From Campylobacterales bacterium (GTDB lineage Bacteria > Campylobacterota > Campylobacteria > Campylobacterales > Sulfurimonadaceae): 55,576 nt of DNA. The stretch is taken from assembly GCA_026390165.1 (NCBI GenBank), contig JAPLGM010000007.1, positions 1 through 55,576 of the forward strand, written 5' to 3'. The notes beneath the pieces were generated by a model that did not search any database, was not told where the DNA came from, and worked only from the letters and a program-made list of their open reading frames with translations. Numbering within the stretch: position 1 is the stretch's first letter; every line of letters begins with the position of its first letter. Below are positions 47,254 to 55,576 of the stretch, one piece after another. Both the position numbers and the translations under genes were made by a program.

Positions 47254-48858
47254 ATGGTCTCTTTTTTTAAATCATTTAAAGTCCGATCGTGGACACTTAT
47301 CGTTTCGGTAGCTCTCTTTTTGACCCTTGTTGCGAATATTGCTTTCTTCAAACATGTCATAGAAGTTTATCCCCTCTCATGGAGCAGTGCCCCTTTTATT
47401 GTATCGTTGGCATTGGTGTTGATGAGTGTTACGATCATTCTTTTATCCCTCTTTAGTTTCCGTCGTACCCTCAAGCCTATTATCATTTTAATTTTAATTT
47501 TATCGTCATTTGTTGCCTATTTTATGGATACCTACAATACGGTGATTGATACCCATATGATTCAAAACACGTTAGAAACCAATCTGAGTGAATCTTCTGA
47601 TTTATTTAGTTTTACCCTTGTATTGTATGTTCTTTTGATCGGAGTAATCCCTTCATTTATCGTTTATAAAGCTAATATAGCTCCGATGAAGCTTAAATCG
47701 ACACTTCTCGAGAAAGGAAAAATCATTGGGATTGCCCTCGCTTTTGTCGCGATACTGCTATTTGCCTTTAGCAAAAATTATACATCCTTTTTTCGAGAAC
47801 ATAAGCCGTTACGTTATTATGCCAATCCAGCCTTTTATCTCTATTCAAGTGGTTCGTATATACAAAAATCATTGTCCCATCCGTATACGGGATTAGCCCT
47901 TTATGCTCAAGATGCAGTGGCATCTCCCTCGGATAAAAACCGAAAATTGATTGTTGTCGTCGTTGGAGAAGCAGCGCGATGGGATCATTTCTCTCTCAAT
48001 GGCTATTCACGTGAAACGAATCCATTGCTCAAAAATGAAGATATTGTTAACTTTACCCAGTTCACCTCCTGCGGTACGGAGACGGCGATCTCCGTACCGT
48101 GTATGTTCTCCTCGTTTGGAAGAGAGAACTATGAGGGGGAGAAAGCCAAACATACTGAAAATATTTTGGATGTTCTCAAACGCTCGGGAGCGAATATTTT
48201 GTGGCGGGATAACAACTCCGATTCCAAAGGGGTAGCGGAACGTGTGACCTACGAGGATTACAAAATACCGGCTAACAATACGATTTGCGAAGATGGTGAG
48301 TGCCGTGATGAGGGGATGTTAGTTGGGCTTGATACGTACATTAAGGCTCATCCCAAAGGGGATATTGTTATCGTTCTTCACCAGATGGGGAACCACGGTC
48401 CAGCGTATTACAAACGGTATCCGAAAGAATTCGAGAAATTTACCCCTGTGTGCAAAAGCAATCAGTTGGAACAATGCACCCAAGCGGAAATTGCCAATGG
48501 GTACGATAATGTCCTTCTTTATACCGATTATTTTTTGAAGAAAACGATTGATTTTCTGAAAAAGAATGATTCATCCTTTGCAACGGCAATGTTTTATGTA
48601 AGCGATCATGGGGAGTCATTGGGGGAAAATGGTCTCTATCTCCACGGGTTTCCGTACGCCATTGCCCCTGAAGCGCAAAAACATGTCCCTGCCGTAATGT
48701 GGTTTGGTGAAAAATTCAAGGTGAATAAAGTGGCGTTGAAGCAGCGGGCGTCTCAACCCTACAGCCAAGATTTTATTTTTGATACGTTGTTGGGGATGAG
48801 TGAAGTGAAAACCTCTGTCTACCGAAGCGAGCTGGATATTTTGCATGGCATCCACTAA
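47254..48858 (+). CDS. eptA: lipid A phosphoethanolamine transferase (EptA-like)
   Basis: 534 residues. Five N-terminal membrane helices (to about 180), then a periplasmic alkaline-phosphatase-like domain. VVVGEAARWDHFSLNGYSRETNPLL holds a metal Glu. SCGTETAISVPCMFS holds the probable nucleophile Thr277, flanked by the Cys273-Cys283 pair seen in EptA/MCR proteins. SDHGESLGENGLYLHGFPYAIAP holds metal ligands. It moves phosphoethanolamine from phosphatidylethanolamine to lipid A, lowering surface charge and polymyxin binding. It overlaps lpxE by 14 bases. Confidence 0.92.
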   Translation: MVSFFKSFKVRSWTLIVSVALFLTLVANIAFFKHVIEVYPLSWSSAPFIVSLALVLMSVTIILLSLFSFRRTLKPIIILILILSSFVAYFMDTYNTVIDTHMIQNTLETNLSESSDLFSFTLVLYVLLIGVIPSFIVYKANIAPMKLKSTLLEKGKIIGIALAFVAILLFAFSKNYTSFFREHKPLRYYANPAFYLYSSGSYIQKSLSHPYTGLALYAQDAVASPSDKNRKLIVVVVGEAARWDHFSLNGYSRETNPLLKNEDIVNFTQFTSCGTETAISVPCMFSSFGRENYEGEKAKHTENILDVLKRSGANILWRDNNSDSKGVAERVTYEDYKIPANNTICEDGECRDEGMLVGLDTYIKAHPKGDIVIVLHQMGNHGPAYYKRYPKEFEKFTPVCKSNQLEQCTQAEIANGYDNVLLYTDYFLKKTIDFLKKNDSSFATAMFYVSDHGESLGENGLYLHGFPYAIAPEAQKHVPAVMWFGEKFKVNKVALKQRASQPYSQDFIFDTLLGMSEVKTSVYRSELDILHGIH

Positions 48859-49546
48859 AAATATTCTCCTTACCGCTCTTTTGCTCTTAGGGGCAATCTT
48901 GTTTTTTGGATTGAGCGGTGCGGATATTGCGATACAAAGCCTTTTTTATAACCCTCAAACCCATCAATGGCTTGTCGATTCGAACAATGAAGTTTTGAAA
49001 TTTGTTTTTTACGATGGAATCAAACGGCTATTGATCATTATCGGCGTTGTTGTTTTAGTTGGATTGATGCTTGGATGGAAACGCCCTTCATTACAACCGT
49101 ATCGACGGGGGTTAATTATTCTCCTTGCCTCCTCGATAGTTGTCCCCCTTATTGTGGGTTCTCTAAAAGCGGTGACGAATATGCCATGTCCCAAAAATGT
49201 TGAAATATTTGGGGGAACCTATCCTCATACGTGTGTGTGGGAGAGCTATGGAAAGAGAGAATGCCCCAAAGAGAAGCAAAAATGTTGGCCAGCAGGACAT
49301 GCGAGTGGGGGATTTGCATTGATGGCATTGGTGTTTCTCTTCCAGACACGACGGGCGAAAGTACTAGCTATGAGCAGTGCCGTGATGATCGGATGGAGTA
49401 TGGGAACCTATAAAATGTTGATAGGGGATCATTTTTTTAGCCACTCAGTGATTACGATGGTTTTGGCATGGCTGCTGATATTATTGATTGTTCGAGGTGT
49501 GGATAGAATTTTTCAACAAACGCTTAAGCTAGGTGACGTACAATAA
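48845..49546 (+). CDS. lpxE: PAP2-family lipid A phosphatase (LpxE-like)
   Basis: 233 residues, about six membrane helices. PAP2 motifs: LKAVTNMPCPKNVEIFGG (motif 1 with Cys-Pro where most PAP2 enzymes have Arg-Pro, as in lipid A phosphatases of this type), PAGHASGGFA (motif 2) and YKMLIGDHFFSHSVI (motif 3 with His). It should remove a lipid A phosphate in the periplasm. In Helicobacter pylori LpxE (HP0021) and EptA (HP0022) are neighbours and act in sequence on the 1-position; the same pair here suggests the same modification. Confidence 0.85.
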   Translation: MASTKNILLTALLLLGAILFFGLSGADIAIQSLFYNPQTHQWLVDSNNEVLKFVFYDGIKRLLIIIGVVVLVGLMLGWKRPSLQPYRRGLIILLASSIVVPLIVGSLKAVTNMPCPKNVEIFGGTYPHTCVWESYGKRECPKEKQKCWPAGHASGGFALMALVFLFQTRRAKVLAMSSAVMIGWSMGTYKMLIGDHFFSHSVITMVLAWLLILLIVRGVDRIFQQTLKLGDVQ

Positions 49547-49564
49547 CCAAAAGAAAGGGTGGTT

Positions 49565-50305
49565 ATGAAACAAATACTCTTAGTGTTAAGTACTGCGATA
49601 GTATTAGTGAGTGGTGCGTATGGCAATGAAGTACAGCACGAGTCAACCCATGAAGTTCACTGGAATTATGATGAGAATGGACCTGCCAATTGGGGGAAAT
49701 TTAGTGAAACATGTCAAATCGGGGAAGCCCAATCTCCGATTAATATTATTGTCAATGAGACAAAAGGGATTGATAAATCCGATATTTTAAAACTGAATGA
49801 AAGTATAGAAACCAAAGCGTCGATTGCGGATAACGGACATGCGATCCAAGTCAATATTGAGAATGGCGGAATTATCCGTGTTGATGGGGTTAATTATAAA
49901 TTGGTTCAGTTTCACTTTCATGGGTTAAGCGAAGAGGAGATCGACGGAGCGCATACCGATTTAGTCGCTCACATGGTGCATAAAAGTCCATTCGGAAGCC
50001 TTTTGGTTGTGGCAGTATTGTTTAATGAGGGAAAAACAGCGCAACCAATGATTCAAACAGTGATCGAGAATGTTGGTAAATCAGTAGAAATTGATCCTTC
50101 AACCCTTCTCCCCTTCGATACCGAGCATTATTACCATTTTATGGGGTCATTGACTACCCCTCCGTGCACTGAAAATGTTAAATGGTACGTTATGAAAGAG
50201 GTAGAAAGTGCAAGCAAAGAACAAATCGCTGCGTTGCGTACGTTTTACGATCACAACTATCGCCCTGTTCAGCCTCTTAATGGTCGTGTAGTTGAGTCAA
50301 AATAG
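49565..50305 (+). CDS. alpha-class carbonic anhydrase, periplasmic
   Basis: 246 residues from ATG 49565 (a GTG two codons earlier is possible). Signal peptide MKQILLVLSTAIVLVSGAYG. Alpha-CA landmarks: HWNYDENGPANWGKF, CQIGEAQSPINI, zinc ligands His117 and His119 in QFHFHGLSEEE and His136 in AHMVHKS, then MGSLTTPPCTENVKWYVM. It interconverts CO2 and bicarbonate in the periplasm. Oddity: Val134 stands two residues before His136, where alpha-CAs usually have the Glu that orients the third zinc His. Confidence 0.92.
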   Translation: MKQILLVLSTAIVLVSGAYGNEVQHESTHEVHWNYDENGPANWGKFSETCQIGEAQSPINIIVNETKGIDKSDILKLNESIETKASIADNGHAIQVNIENGGIIRVDGVNYKLVQFHFHGLSEEEIDGAHTDLVAHMVHKSPFGSLLVVAVLFNEGKTAQPMIQTVIENVGKSVEIDPSTLLPFDTEHYYHFMGSLTTPPCTENVKWYVMKEVESASKEQIAALRTFYDHNYRPVQPLNGRVVESK

Positions 50306-50320
50306 AAGAGAGGGGGATAT

Positions 50321-51334
50321 TTAAACCACCCAAGCCCCATCTCTATAAACAACATCATCTCCAAGGGTAAAAGTATGGGTGTCTACAAAAATATCGACAT
50401 GGTATTTACCATCTCGGCGTTTAAACCCCGGTTTGCCATAGATACCATGTTTCGCCCCCAACGACAAATGAACACCGCACATCCGCTCGTAGGTACCCGT
50501 ATCCGCAACGGTGCGTGTTTTGTCAAAAGCTCTGTTAAGTCCTAATCCTAGCTCTCGTACCCAAACTGTCCCCTCATCTCTACGGATATTAAAAAGTATC
50601 TCATCAAACGCAGGGGTTGAATTTTCACACGCTACGACTTGCCCCTCCTCTACAATAATGGTGATGGGCGTTGCGGGTGTATTGAGTTTGTAGGTTACAT
50701 CACCAAAGCAAAAAATCTTCGCCCGTCCATGCAGCGCTCGTAAATCTTGTGCTTCGGTAAATACCTCCCCCAGTGGAAATTGACCGCCAGTATTTGGCAT
50801 ATCGGAGTAATCCCCAATATTGAGCTTGGCCGACTCAAAGGGAGAACCATAAACCAAAAATTCCCCGCCACTGTCGATGATACCCGATGGGGCACTGTCT
50901 ATTTTGGCTTTAAGACCACGACCGACGTGGCGATAATACTCAGCATCATACGCCAATGAATCAATATAGTACGACGCTTCATCATCGGACATACGGCTAA
51001 GATGAGGATGTTCGATCACTTTGATCTGTTTTTTAAATAGCTCGACTCGTAGACGAAATTCATTGAGACGAAAACTTTTGGATTGGATCAATACGACCAA
51101 ATCGAAGGGGTTTAGAGAATCAAAAATGTCGAGTATCTCTTCAGGTGCGCTAGCATTAAAATCAATGAATAGAGCATTGGGCAAACAACGTTTATACCCT
51201 TGCATCAAAAGGGTAGATAACAAATAATCGGTGTCATAGACCACGACGGCACGCTCTTTGTCGGTGTAGTTAAATGCGGTACTTACGAGACTATGCAAGT
51301 TGTTCTGGGCTTTTAGAATTAACGCTTCAGACAT
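50321..51334 (-). CDS. M29-like aminopeptidase-related protein
   Basis: 337 residues, cytosolic. The C-terminal part has VWVRELGLGLNRAFD, RMCGVHLSLGAKHGIYG and GKYHVDIFVDTHTFTLGDDVVYRDG, which resemble the metal-binding Glu, His and Asp region of M29 (thermophilic) aminopeptidases. The N-terminal 160 residues are less familiar. It probably cleaves peptides with a di-metal site, but assignment is at family level only. The minus-strand structured leader at 51416-51600 lies just upstream. Confidence 0.68.
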   Translation of the reverse strand: MSEALILKAQNNLHSLVSTAFNYTDKERAVVVYDTDYLLSTLLMQGYKRCLPNALFIDFNASAPEEILDIFDSLNPFDLVVLIQSKSFRLNEFRLRVELFKKQIKVIEHPHLSRMSDDEASYYIDSLAYDAEYYRHVGRGLKAKIDSAPSGIIDSGGEFLVYGSPFESAKLNIGDYSDMPNTGGQFPLGEVFTEAQDLRALHGRAKIFCFGDVTYKLNTPATPITIIVEEGQVVACENSTPAFDEILFNIRRDEGTVWVRELGLGLNRAFDKTRTVADTGTYERMCGVHLSLGAKHGIYGKPGFKRRDGKYHVDIFVDTHTFTLGDDVVYRDGAWVV

Positions 51335-51393
51335 TATTTTTCCTCATTTGGTAAGGTTGTGATGAACTTTAAAAGAGGCGGAAATTGGGGGAT

Positions 51394-51412
51394 CAAGGGG
51401 ATAGACCCCTTG
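51394..51412 (-). other. hairpin downstream of the 19-residue ORF
   Basis: A 7-base stem CAAGGGG/CCCCTTG with a 5-base loop, 3 bases after the small ORF stop. It is followed on the minus-strand RNA by GAUCCCCC, which can pair with GGGGAUC at the ribosome binding site of that ORF (51479-51485). No T-run follows, so it is not a classical terminator. Confidence 0.55.
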
Positions 51413-51415
51413 GCA

Positions 51416-51475
51416 CTAATGAATTAGTGGTGCAAAAACGCACATAAGAAATAGTGTGAGTATGATCTTATCCAT
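51416..51475 (-). CDS. 19-residue hydrophobic peptide, type I toxin-like candidate
   Basis: The ORF reads MDKIILTLFLMCVFAPLIH and stop: a short charged start and one hydrophobic helix, like Ibs-, Tis- or Hok-style toxic peptides. GAAGGGG lies 6 bases before the ATG. It is preceded by a perfect TATAAT promoter on the same strand and a strongly structured leader, and followed by a hairpin able to hide its ribosome binding site. It could also be the leader peptide of the M29-like gene. No homologue is recognised, so coding status is an inference. Confidence 0.45.
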   Translation of the reverse strand: MDKIILTLFLMCVFAPLIH

Positions 51476-51485
51476 AACGATCCCC

Positions 51486-51574
51486 TTCTGTTGAATCTTT
51501 GGAGGACAAAAAAAAAGGTCAAGGGGTAATTAATCCCTCAACCTTCATATTGTCGCTCCATTGATTCAACAGAA
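51486..51574 (-). repeat. 12-base perfect inverted repeat enclosing a terminator hairpin
   Basis: TTCTGTTGAATC at 51486-51497 pairs with GATTCAACAGAA at 51563-51574. The 65 bases between them hold the hairpin at 51515-51545. In minus-strand RNA the second arm ends right against the GGGG of the small ORF ribosome binding site. Alternative reading: a tiny MITE-like element with terminal inverted repeats. Confidence 0.7.
51506..51545 (-). terminator. intrinsic terminator inside the leader
   Basis: On the minus-strand RNA AAGGUUGAGGG pairs with CCCUUGACCUU (11 pairs, two of them G-U) and is followed by nine or more U. The two wobble pairs become mismatches on the plus-strand RNA, so the structure was kept for minus-strand transcription. 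It would release an RNA of about 80 bases from the promoter at 51600. Confidence 0.7.
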
Positions 51575-51594
51575 AAGTCACACTCACAAAAGGG

Positions 51595-51600
51595 ATTATA
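51595..51600 (-). promoter_or_regulatory. -10 box for the structured leader
   Basis: Perfect TATAAT on the minus strand, with a predicted start near 51588. About 43 bases from the plus-strand box that serves the peptide-binding protein, making a divergent pair. Confidence 0.5.
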
Positions 51601-51642
51601 GCACAAGTAATAAAATATAAAAATAGGGTTAGGGGTTTACGC

Positions 51643-51648
51643 TATAAT
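51643..51648 (+). promoter_or_regulatory. -10 box for the peptide-binding protein gene
   Basis: TATAAT, with a predicted start near 51655, about 17 bases before the TTG start. Confidence 0.45.
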
Positions 51649-51671
51649 TCACACCAAAAACAGGCTGATGA

Positions 51672-53300: not shown

Positions 53301-54854
53301 ATGAATAAATATTCAGATAGTGATGCCATTTCAAAAATATCAAAAACAAATTTACGCAAAGAAGGTGAAAAAATTTCCAGTGAGAGCGAAGCCGAGAATA
53401 TCGAATCTCTACAAGTGGTATTGGATGAGGAAAAAAAACGCTATTTTGAGCTCTATGACTTAGCCCCAGTCGGTTATTGCACCCTCAATGAAAAGGATAT
53501 TATCCTCCAATCCAATCTCACTGCCGCTACCTTATTGGAAACAACGAAAGATGAGTTGGTCAAACGTAGTTTCAGCGCATTCATCTTCAGTGAGGATCTG
53601 GATATCTACTCTCTGTTTCGAAAAAAGATGCGAAAGAGAGGTAAAGAGAGGGGTTGCGTGCTTCGGATGGTAAAAAAAGATGGGAGACCGTTTTGGGGAC
53701 ATGTGGCGGCTACGGCAGTAGTAGAAGATGACCGCACCGAACTGCGTATTGTTTTCTACGATATGACGAAGCGTAAAGAGGCAGAGATTGCACTACACGA
53801 ATCAGAAATAAAGTACCAGTTATTGGCAGATTACGCCAAAGAGTGTATCTTTTTGATGGATGCTAATGGGAACTATCTCTATATCTCTCCAGCGTGTGAA
53901 GATATCTCTGGCTATAAACCCGAAGAGTTCCTTGCCGACGCATCTTTGATGACACAAATCATCCATCCGGATGATCGAGATGCGTATCAACACCATCTTG
54001 ACCATTTGCCCGAAAACGACATCAGCGAAATGGAATTTCGTATCGTGTGTCGTGACGGTTCCCAACGCTGGTTTAGCCATTACTCTAATGCTATTTATGA
54101 TAAGGATGGTCTCTATCTCGGACGCCGTGGAAGCAACCGCGATATTACTGAAAAGAAGAAGATGGAGTTAACTCTTGTTGATAGTGAAGCAAAACTGCTC
54201 AATGTTACTTCATCGGTGCAAGACGCCATAATAATGATAGACAATGATGGAAAGATAATTTGTTGGAATGAAGCAGCCCATCGAATAACAGGGTATCTGA
54301 AGGAGGAGGTGATGGGACGGGAACTTCATCGATTTCTCGCACCTGAACAATTTTATGCCGACTATGAAAAAGGATTTGCTAATTTCCGCACTACTGGTGA
54401 ATGGGCTGCTATTGGCAAGCCCCTTGAGCTCACAGCTCTCCATAAAGAAGGGTATGAAATTCCTATCGAGTTGTCGTTATCAGCACTAAAATTGAATGGA
54501 CTTTGGTGCGCGGTTGCTATTTTGCGTGACATTAGCGAACGTAAAAATAGTGAACTAAAACTCAGAGCGAGTGAGTTCGCGGAGAGTATTATCAACACCG
54601 TTCGTGAACCTTTGATTGCCTTGGATCAAGACCTTAGGGTGGTTACCGTCAGCCGTTCTTTCTATGAATTTTTCAAGGTCAAGCCCGAAGAGACCGTTGG
54701 AGAGCTGATCTATGATTTGGGAAACAAGCAGTGGAATATCCCAAAACTGCGTGAACTTCTCGAAACTATCCTTCCCCAGCAAACTACCTTTGATGACTAT
54801 GAAAGCGGATTATCCTGTTGGCGATCGAGGACATTACAGAGCGTAGAACGATAG
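53301..54854 (+). CDS. multi-PAS sensor protein, reading frame broken in the first PAS repeat
   Basis: 517 residues as it reads. A charged coiled N-terminus (about 1-45) is followed by PAS domains at about 46-160 (LAPVGYCTLNEKD), 165-285 (LMDANGNYLYISPACEDISGY) and 290-415 (IMIDNDGKIICWNEAAHRITGY, ending with a PAC motif). A fourth PAS begins near residue 423 (AESIINTVREPLIALDQDLR). In that fourth unit 79 bases are missing relative to the next copy, shifting the frame to a stop at 54854. No membrane helices. It is probably the front of a large sensor kinase whose catalytic part lies beyond the right edge. Confidence 0.82.
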   Translation: MNKYSDSDAISKISKTNLRKEGEKISSESEAENIESLQVVLDEEKKRYFELYDLAPVGYCTLNEKDIILQSNLTAATLLETTKDELVKRSFSAFIFSEDLDIYSLFRKKMRKRGKERGCVLRMVKKDGRPFWGHVAATAVVEDDRTELRIVFYDMTKRKEAEIALHESEIKYQLLADYAKECIFLMDANGNYLYISPACEDISGYKPEEFLADASLMTQIIHPDDRDAYQHHLDHLPENDISEMEFRIVCRDGSQRWFSHYSNAIYDKDGLYLGRRGSNRDITEKKKMELTLVDSEAKLLNVTSSVQDAIIMIDNDGKIICWNEAAHRITGYLKEEVMGRELHRFLAPEQFYADYEKGFANFRTTGEWAAIGKPLELTALHKEGYEIPIELSLSALKLNGLWCAVAILRDISERKNSELKLRASEFAESIINTVREPLIALDQDLRVVTVSRSFYEFFKVKPEETVGELIYDLGNKQWNIPKLRELLETILPQQTTFDDYESGLSCWRSRTLQSVER

Positions 54855-54913
54855 AAGATGGAGTGGAAAAAACAAGAAAAGAGTTGGAAGTTATTAAAAA
54901 GTTTGCTGATGCA
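54567..54913 (+). repeat. PAS tandem repeat, copy 1 (with 79-base deletion)
   Basis: 347 bases, aligning with the 426-base unit of copy 2 apart from a net 79-base deletion right after GATGACTATGAA (ends 54803). Outside the deletion the copies differ at only a small number of positions. Confidence 0.85.
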
Positions 54914-55339
54914 GCGAGTGAGTTCGCAGAGAGTATTATCAACACAGTGCGTGAACCTTTGATTGCCTTGAATCAAGACCTTAGGGTGGTTACCGTCAGC
55001 CGTTCTTTCTATGAATTTTTCAAGGTCAAGCCCGAAGAGACCGTTGGAGAGCTAATCTATGATTTGGGAAACAAGCAGTGGAATATCCCAAAACTGTGTG
55101 AACTCCTCGAAACCATCCTTCCCCAGAAAACTACCTTTGATGACTATGAAGTTGAACATGACTTTGCCACTATCGGCAGACGGATTATGCTTTTGAATGC
55201 AAGGCAGATTGAACAAGCTCGCGGAAAAGAACGGATCATCCTGTTGGCGATCGAGGACATCACGAAGCGTAGAGAAGTTGAAGATGGATTGGAAAAAACA
55301 AGAAAAGAGTTGGAAGTTATTAAAAAATTTGCTGATGAA
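54914..55339 (+). repeat. PAS tandem repeat, copy 2 (full unit)
   Basis: 426 bases, exactly 142 codons. It encodes a PAS core (SFYEFFKVKPEETVGELIYD), the segment from VEHDFATIGRRIMLLNARQI to the PAC-like ILLAIEDITKRREVEDG, and a coiled linker. One substitution versus copy 1 turns Asp into Asn (ALDQ to ALNQ), another Arg into Cys (KLRE to KLCE). Confidence 0.85.
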
Positions 55340-55576
55340 GCGAGTGAGTTCGCTGAGAGTATTATCAACACAGTGCGTGAACCTTTAATTTCCTTGGATC
55401 AAGACCTTAGGGTGGTTACCGTCAGCCGTTCTTTTTATGAATTTTTCAAGGTCAAGCCCGAAGAGACCGTTGGAGAGCTGATCTATGATTTGGGAAACAA
55501 GCAGTGGAATATCCCAAAACTGCGTGAACTTCTCGAAACTATCCTTCCCCAGCAAACTACCTTTGATGACTATGAA
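55340..55576 (+). repeat. PAS tandem repeat, copy 3 (cut by the window end)
   Basis: 237 bases of the unit. The last 141 bases (55436-55576) are identical to 54663-54803 of copy 1, and the window ends exactly where copies 1 and 2 diverge. Confidence 0.85.

Follow-up and report, generated by a model that had tools for sequence, protein, structure and literature searches.

Here we describe an element on the minus strand of a 55,576-nucleotide stretch of DNA (the window, that is, the whole stretch analysed), which almost certainly belongs to a real, conserved family of RNA-plus-peptide genes. Its product is probably toxin-like. More specifically, the element may be a chromosomal multicopy type I toxin-like module encoded on one strand, in which a terminated leader re-locks its own mRNA as the antitoxin; we regard this reading as nearly an even call, tilted slightly to the unfavourable side. 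The window copy consists of the following parts, all on the minus strand.

51387 to 51603, minus strand: whole element, from the extended -10 box to the C-rich tail (R1 covariance match 51388-51600, 213 bits, E 3.9e-55, the window copy itself being in the training set of the model)
51595 to 51603, minus strand: TGC-TATAAT extended -10 box, read from the sequence (TATAAT at 51600-51595)
51508 to 51588, minus strand: 5' half, the predicted terminated leader small RNA of about 81 nt, with a putative start
51578 to 51588, minus strand: 5' strand of helix 1, whose partner is codons 4-8 (covariation)
51455 to 51465, minus strand: 3' strand of helix 1, within the ORF (fold and covariation)
51563 to 51577, minus strand: 5' strand of helix 2/3, which masks the ribosome site (fold and covariation)
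51483 to 51497, minus strand: 3' strand of helix 2/3, including AAGGG (fold and covariation)
51574-51563 and 51497-51486, minus strand: perfect 12-base inverted repeat TTCTGTTGAATC / GATTCAACAGAA (sequence)
51514 to 51546, minus strand: terminator-like hairpin GAAGGTTGAGGG-ATTAATTAC-CCCTTGACCTTT (12 pairs in the 5'-half fold; helix 4 of the covariation analysis)
51526 to 51534, minus strand: apical loop AUUAAUUAC with palindromic hexamers (sequence)
51508 to 51516, minus strand: U9 tract, exactly U9 in 90 of 96 copies
51479 to 51486, minus strand: ribosome site AGGGGAUC, containing AAGGGG, complementary to the tail and covarying with it
51416 to 51475, minus strand: ORF of 19 codons, MDKIILTLFLMCVFAPLIH (19 codons in 92 of 96 copies)
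51430 to 51443, minus strand: hairpin inside the ORF, GUGCgUUUUUGCAC (helix 6)
51414 to 51429, minus strand: stop-codon hairpin CACUAAU/AUUAGUG (helix 7)
51395 to 51411, minus strand: hairpin AAGGGG/CCCCUU (helix 8)
51387 to 51394, minus strand: anti-ribosome-site tail GAUCCCCC, pairing with the ribosome site in 3'-half folds of 85 of 94 copies

Most of these parts had already been picked out in a sequence-only reading of the window. The minus-strand TATAAT, the perfect 12-base repeat and the AAGGGG site followed by the 19-residue ORF are all present, GGGGATC (51485-51479) and GATCCCC (51394-51388) are exact complements, and CCCCTTGA is found twice. The inner hairpin and its U9 (51516-51508) are there as well, although the fold gives 12 pairs, not the 11 that had been counted. 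That reading missed the helix between the 5' end and codons 4-8, the multicopy nature of the element and the palindromic loop of the terminator-like hairpin. A leader mini-ORF at 51548-51519 was considered and rejected, being recognised by eye only in the same-site copies of three genomes (G000, G032 and G148) and absent from the other aligned copies.

A nucleotide search revealed more copies, both within the source genome and in numerous genomes of its genus, and the covariance model assigned three full copies and one solitary 5' half to the source genome. The model, built from 29 copies that all come from the bacterial family of the source organism, matched 54 of 200 genomes of that family (7 of its 18 genera) and 21 of 398 genomes of the order. 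A draw across the phylum, not broken down by order, gave 17 matched genomes of 397; all 17 belong to the same order, and one of them, in family f14, is weak (E 7e-4). Within the order, 6 of 104 genomes of family f9 and 7 of 18 of family f4 were matched; it should be pointed out that all these draws (family, order, phylum, f9 and f4) overlap. The copies of f4, f9 and f19 lie outside the model. Most of those inspected nevertheless carry the -10 box, the long hairpin, a U7-U9 run, a ribosome site, an ORF close to 19 codons long (such as MWRLLLIILLLCLLTKKLY and MGNLIVIIVLLMLIITKLY) and the complementary tail; several are truncated or lack a clear ORF. When named genomes were scanned with a degenerate pattern, five records were returned, namely three Sulfurimonas, one Sulfuricurvum and one Helicobacteraceae MAG. 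Many genomes do without the element: among 41 of the genus, matches were obtained in 20 with the 5'-half model and in 19 with the 3'-half model. Rfam gave no match at gathering score in the window, and the eight sub-threshold matches in 51330-51660 were all far below their gathering scores. Viral contigs scanned with one pattern gave no match.

From 110 candidate loci, ten were left out of the analysis (full copies L010, L018, L022, L039, L045, L052 and L113; partial copies L049, L053 and L088). There were 134 matches, of which 102 were kept, the other 32 being 31 opposite-strand matches and one solitary 5' half in L021. The 102 copies were reduced to 96 with an ORF by rule: L084, L146, L147 and L148 had no such ORF (the start being odd or lost in some), and L128_1501 and L142_1503 were removed by hand for an off-frame call and a frame change. 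Numbers given over 94 refer to the subset of the 96 whose tail is at least 20 nt long, and numbers over 92 to the subset with exactly 19 codons; the copies are related and not independent. Tandem copies were seen at L078 (285-505 and 597-812) and at L128 (1501-1782 and 1845-2057), so the element can duplicate locally. At L146, L147, L142 and L049 the ORF start is lost, the frame is changed or the ORF is deleted, and the 5' half remains.

The 209-nt minus-strand RNA starting at 51588 folds at -88.4 kcal/mol, compared with -47.1 ± 4.6 kcal/mol for 200 dinucleotide shuffles (z = -9.1). The predicted fold is a single long hairpin. The 5' end (51588-51578) lies on codons 4-8 (51465-51455) and is followed by a segment base-paired to the ribosome site and the 12-base repeat; at the tip is the terminator-like hairpin, together with its U9. 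When 26 copies were aligned by sequence only, 58 pairs were formed in 96.2% of cells. The compensatory changes that had been proposed as a check were found: 193 double-changed cells were counted, compared with 57.3 ± 7.1 for shuffled partners and 16-30 when the pairing was slid by 1-3 columns, with the qualification that this alignment also served to predict the structure, and that this somewhat favours the true over the slid pairing. In helix 1, seven of nine pairs changed on both sides and 97.9% of cells were paired; in helix 4, the terminator-like hairpin, both sides changed in five of ten pairs. Best folds of the 96 copies contain 463 G-U pairs on the sense strand and 106 on the antisense strand, and the minus-strand RNA is thus indicated as the selected molecule.

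The other proposed check concerned the peptide, and it too favours a genuine feature. Among the 96 ORFs, the 92 with 19 codons share an invariant L10 (92/92), together with C12 (90/92), K3, A15 and P16 (83/92 each). The core is hydrophobic, and length and composition suggest a single helix. Second-position entropy is only 0-0.39 in codons 4-6, 8 and 9 and 0.64 in codon 7, compared with about 1.0-1.9 for first and third positions across codons 4-9. Judging from this codon pattern, the hydrophobic residues of codons 4-9 are kept as their bases change in step with the 5' end, and the peptide is under selection.

These results bear directly on the idea that the element is non-coding, a palindromic repeat or MITE-like mobile DNA in which an ORF occurs by chance. 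The copies are indeed dispersed, numerous and strongly palindromic, and stand in tandem at the two loci L078 and L128. However, the G-U pairs favour one strand, the codon positions behave as in a coding region, the ORF and ribosome site are kept, the same site is occupied in related species according to shared flanks, and phage and plasmid collections searched with the window copy gave no match. By the coding pattern of the aligned copies, this reading is already largely refuted, and we consider it highly improbable.

The ribosome site is engaged by two different partners. On the one hand, the 5' half masks it through the covarying helices 1-3. On the other hand, the site and the tail change together, GGGAG occurring with CTCCC in 24 of 24 copies and GGGGG with CCCCC in 47 of 51. 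RNAalifold chose this second pairing unprompted for the 3' half alone, and so did single-sequence folds of the 3' half, with the ribosome site on the tail in 85 of 94 copies. In full-length best folds (n = 94), the site lay on the tail in 43 copies, on the 5' half in 34, on nearby sequence in 3, and was unpaired in 14. The duplex energy of the tail with its own ribosome site was -13.2 kcal/mol, compared with -10.5 kcal/mol for other sites; the preference is only moderate because many ribosome sites are identical, and a median of 26% of the other copies' sites bind the tail equally well. The two locks are mutually exclusive, so the RNA is probably bistable. In the modelled primary transcript the ribosome site is occluded, and the sequence pairing points to a long-distance lock by a far-downstream anti-ribosome-site sequence. 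Such folding and processing order, with two mutually exclusive, covariation-backed locks on one ribosome site, is directly testable.

Complementarity of the 5' half is specific to each copy. When the 5' end was paired with codons 3-12, the pairing with its own copy ranked in the strongest 5% across all partners for 90 of 96 copies. Of 136 comparisons within genomes, 133 showed better pairing of the 5' half to the mRNA of its own copy than to a paralogue's. All of this complementarity is fully explained by folding in cis.

The sequence-only reading had left open either a type I toxin-like family or an attenuator, and only the first of these was supported, as a design. The type I-like design is borne out by the conserved peptide, the ribosome site masked with covariation, the 5'-3' pairing and a U-run consistent with a small RNA. 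As a transcription attenuator the element would control the downstream M29-like gene, which in the window does start about 50 nt after the tail on the same strand. Synteny speaks against this arrangement. Among the 41 genus genomes, the M29-like side was matched in 28 and the upstream transporter side in 39, yet the element adjoins the M29-like side only in its own genome and in G148, as well as in G032 at a distance of about 1.2 kb, leaving 25 of 28 genomes with the M29-like side and no adjacent element. Among 86 scorable copies (10 of 96 could not be scored), the downstream ORF lies on the opposite strand in 54 and on the same strand in 32, so that no conserved co-directional target gene was found and this candidate was rejected. 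Moreover, an ORF under protein-level constraint lies between the terminator and the gene. From synteny, attenuation of the M29-like gene is already largely refuted, and we find it hardly credible.

The U tract of the leader is exactly U9 in 90 of 96 copies, and in the consensus fold five of the nine U are unpaired; its strict length is thus better explained by termination than by folding. Other terminator-like sites in a 456 kb control that includes the window have runs of 5-7 T. A simple consensus scan at the window locus called neither a -35/-10 promoter nor a terminator, the latter because the 9-nt loop is longer than the 8 nt that the rule admits. The leader probably ends early at U9; as a separate RNA it is predicted from the hairpin with U9.

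The loop of this hairpin contains a palindromic hexamer in 82 of 96 copies, and several kinds are used (TAATTA/ATTAAT, TCATGA, TTCGAA and TGATCA). Among distinct loops of at least 6 nt, 12 of 14 are palindromic, compared with a shuffled mean of 1.6. Non-palindromic loops also occur, for example in four of six f4 copies and in all three copies of G070. The idea that loop palindromes are a general habit of local terminators was rejected. The 456 kb control yielded 50 hairpins, 19 of them with loops of at least 6 nt; the only palindromic loop was that of the element itself, with 0 of 18 among the others, under a loose rule (T5 or more) by which many of these hairpins are probably not terminators. 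In an earlier control of 24 hairpins outside the element list, 8 of 12 with loops of at least 6 nt were palindromic, and all eight proved to be element copies or solitary halves (L025, L039, L045, L049, L052, L067, L159 and L160). A role of the palindrome in copy specificity was rejected as well: copies within a genome share the same palindrome in 37 of 68 pairs, which is more, not less, than the shuffled mean of 26.5. A kissing-loop dimer through the terminator loop is offered as a suggestion, and the loop could have other functions. As a separate observation, most copies have a self-complementary terminator loop (e.g. 51526-51534 in the window), but the loops switch among a few palindromes.

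On the sense strand, the -10 box is TATAAT in 66 of 92 copies, with a mean of 5.66 matches of 6, and TTGAC occupies the -35 place in only 24 of 92. The opposite strand of the 92 copies shows no conserved -10 box, the best position having a mean of 3.83 of 6 compared with 5.66 for the sense strand. Furthermore, an antisense TATAAT-like site in the ORF and tail is rarer than in shuffles (0.38 versus 0.54 of copies). There may still be a weak, non-consensus antisense promoter.

These promoter data matter for comparison with known type I systems. Helicobacter pylori is placed in the same order as the source organism. Its aapA/IsoA system is the nearest known one, and is described in PMC6733600 and PMC8322730 as multicopy and chromosomal, with a tiny hydrophobic peptide and module-specific RNA pairing. 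There, the aapA ribosome site is masked both by an anti-ribosome-site sequence far downstream and by early, co-transcriptional hairpins (PMC6733600, PMC8322730). IsoA is transcribed antisense from a promoter of its own. Both systems share tiny peptides encoded in multiple copies, an anti-ribosome-site sequence far downstream and co-transcriptional masking, and the element may work like aapA/IsoA. In contrast to IsoA, the complementary RNA of the element is the leader of the same transcript, with a terminator-like hairpin and U9. The AapA peptide has about 30 residues versus 19 here, the two being set apart by length alone. An AapA/IsoA-type module with a classical opposite-strand antisense antitoxin would fit the multiple copies, the 3' anti-ribosome-site tail with 5'-3' locking as in PMC6733600, and the shared order; it agrees poorly with the 19-residue peptide, the absence of a conserved opposite-strand -10 box and the scarcity of antisense TATAAT-like sites. 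We consider such a module improbable, and because a conserved opposite-strand -10 box was not found, the element is not filed as an aapA/IsoA member. PMC6733600 also states that loci in related species conserve the aapA fold, and loci of the element may thus have been mentioned before.

Other known systems resemble the element in part. The hok/Sok system has an inert full-length mRNA with alternative folds, and Sok is an antisense RNA. The element is alike in its inert full-length mRNA and alternative folds, and activation by trimming is proposed for it by analogy; it differs in that hok/Sok has an antisense Sok and no leader terminator. Ibs/Sib of E. coli encodes a hydrophobic peptide of similar size, but Sib is antisense to the ORF and there is no leader pairing. 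In some attenuator leaders, the terminated RNA acts in trans; the element is alike in having a terminated leader that could be a regulatory RNA, and differs in that the best target of this leader is its own downstream ORF. PMC6733600 mentions hok/Sok, and in passages of PMC11264685 no closer system was found. A partial literature search found no description of the element family or of a type I antitoxin that is the terminated leader of its own toxin mRNA.

Copies lacking one half give a further view of the leader. In the 41 genus genomes, the 5'-half model gave 48 matches and the 3'-half model 36, with 33 of each together (in one of these 33 pairs, G026:C66, the ORF region is deleted). Hence, 15 of the 48 5' halves stand without a 3' half, and the three solitary 3'-half matches score 29-56 bits compared with 88-124 bits for intact copies. 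Of the 15 lone 5' halves, ten were inspected: eight have TATAAT and nine a run of at least U7. At four sites, judged by shared flanks, one species has the full element and another the 5' half alone. Both flanks are shared for L004/L045 with L150 and for L048/L002; for L050/L011 with L018, the upstream flank and a shifted downstream piece are shared, and for L025/L052 the upstream flank only. This pattern of loss, read from genome comparison, is the one expected if the 3' half were harmful without the 5' half, and is not proof of it. Retention of solitary 5' halves as orphan antitoxins was not supported as an explanation: special pairing with co-resident full copies was seen in only one of ten pairs tested (L054-L047), a test that left out L024 and L048 versus the full copies of their genomes, and the solitary halves are thus not obviously kept for that purpose.

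The same observations weigh on an explanation that does without any trans-acting RNA. The element could encode a purely cis-controlled small membrane peptide, not necessarily toxic, with leader and tail tuning translation and the terminator tuning transcription. Every pairing found can form within one molecule, and nine of ten pairs gave no special match between solitary 5' halves and co-resident copies. It is less readily reconciled with the strict U9, the palindromic loop and the promoter and terminator kept in solitary 5' halves, which together suggest that the leader RNA matters on its own, or with the redundancy of the two locks and the disappearance of the ORF half, as expected of a harmful product. 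We hold this purely cis-acting explanation to be a real possibility, though a doubtful one.

Under the preferred toxin-like reading, the leader itself could act in trans as an antitoxin, which we regard as plausible but short of even chances. One promoter would start an RNA with an intrinsic terminator in its first half. The majority of transcripts would stop at U9 and yield a leader RNA of ~80 nt, and a minority would read through into a ~200-nt mRNA for the 19-residue, one-helix membrane peptide. In that mRNA, the 5' half would act as the first lock, hiding the ribosome site once the latter is made and also covering codons 4-8; the C-rich 3' tail would provide the second lock after transcription is complete. 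Because the ribosome site is hidden twice in the full mRNA, translation would need the loss of both locks, for example if a nuclease processed the 5' half and the tail were trimmed. Identical in sequence to the lost 5' half and best matched to its own mRNA, the leader RNA could re-lock the mRNA in trans and thus serve as the antitoxin. Through their terminator loops, leader RNAs might form kissing contacts with one another or with the leader segment of the mRNA, so that recognition would include a dimer step. The complete scheme, in which one promoter gives an abundant leader antitoxin and a rare read-through toxin mRNA locked by the same leader, with a self-complementary loop adding the dimer step, is put forward tentatively.

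The present analysis adds an RNA-plus-microprotein family that is absent from the Rfam copy searched and spans several families of one bacterial order, and that came to light through covariation, not through resemblance to known toxins. Should the leader prove to be the antitoxin, one strand and one promoter would suffice to encode a toxin-antitoxin pair, with its ratio set by the terminator, and the search for such systems would be widened beyond antisense partners. The single-strand, single-promoter layout would then be the notable point among type I systems, if confirmed.

Two further observations were made elsewhere in the window. At 47254-50305 on the plus strand lies a row of ORFs that by eye resemble a phosphoethanolamine transferase, a PAP2-like protein and an alpha-carbonic anhydrase. 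At 53301-55576, also on the plus strand, a sensor-like protein (PAS-type by eye) contains near-identical tandem repeats (FAESIINTVREPLIA...TFDDYE); one ORF of this gene ends at 54854 within a repeat and another frame continues from 54818, which suggests a frame break within the repeats.
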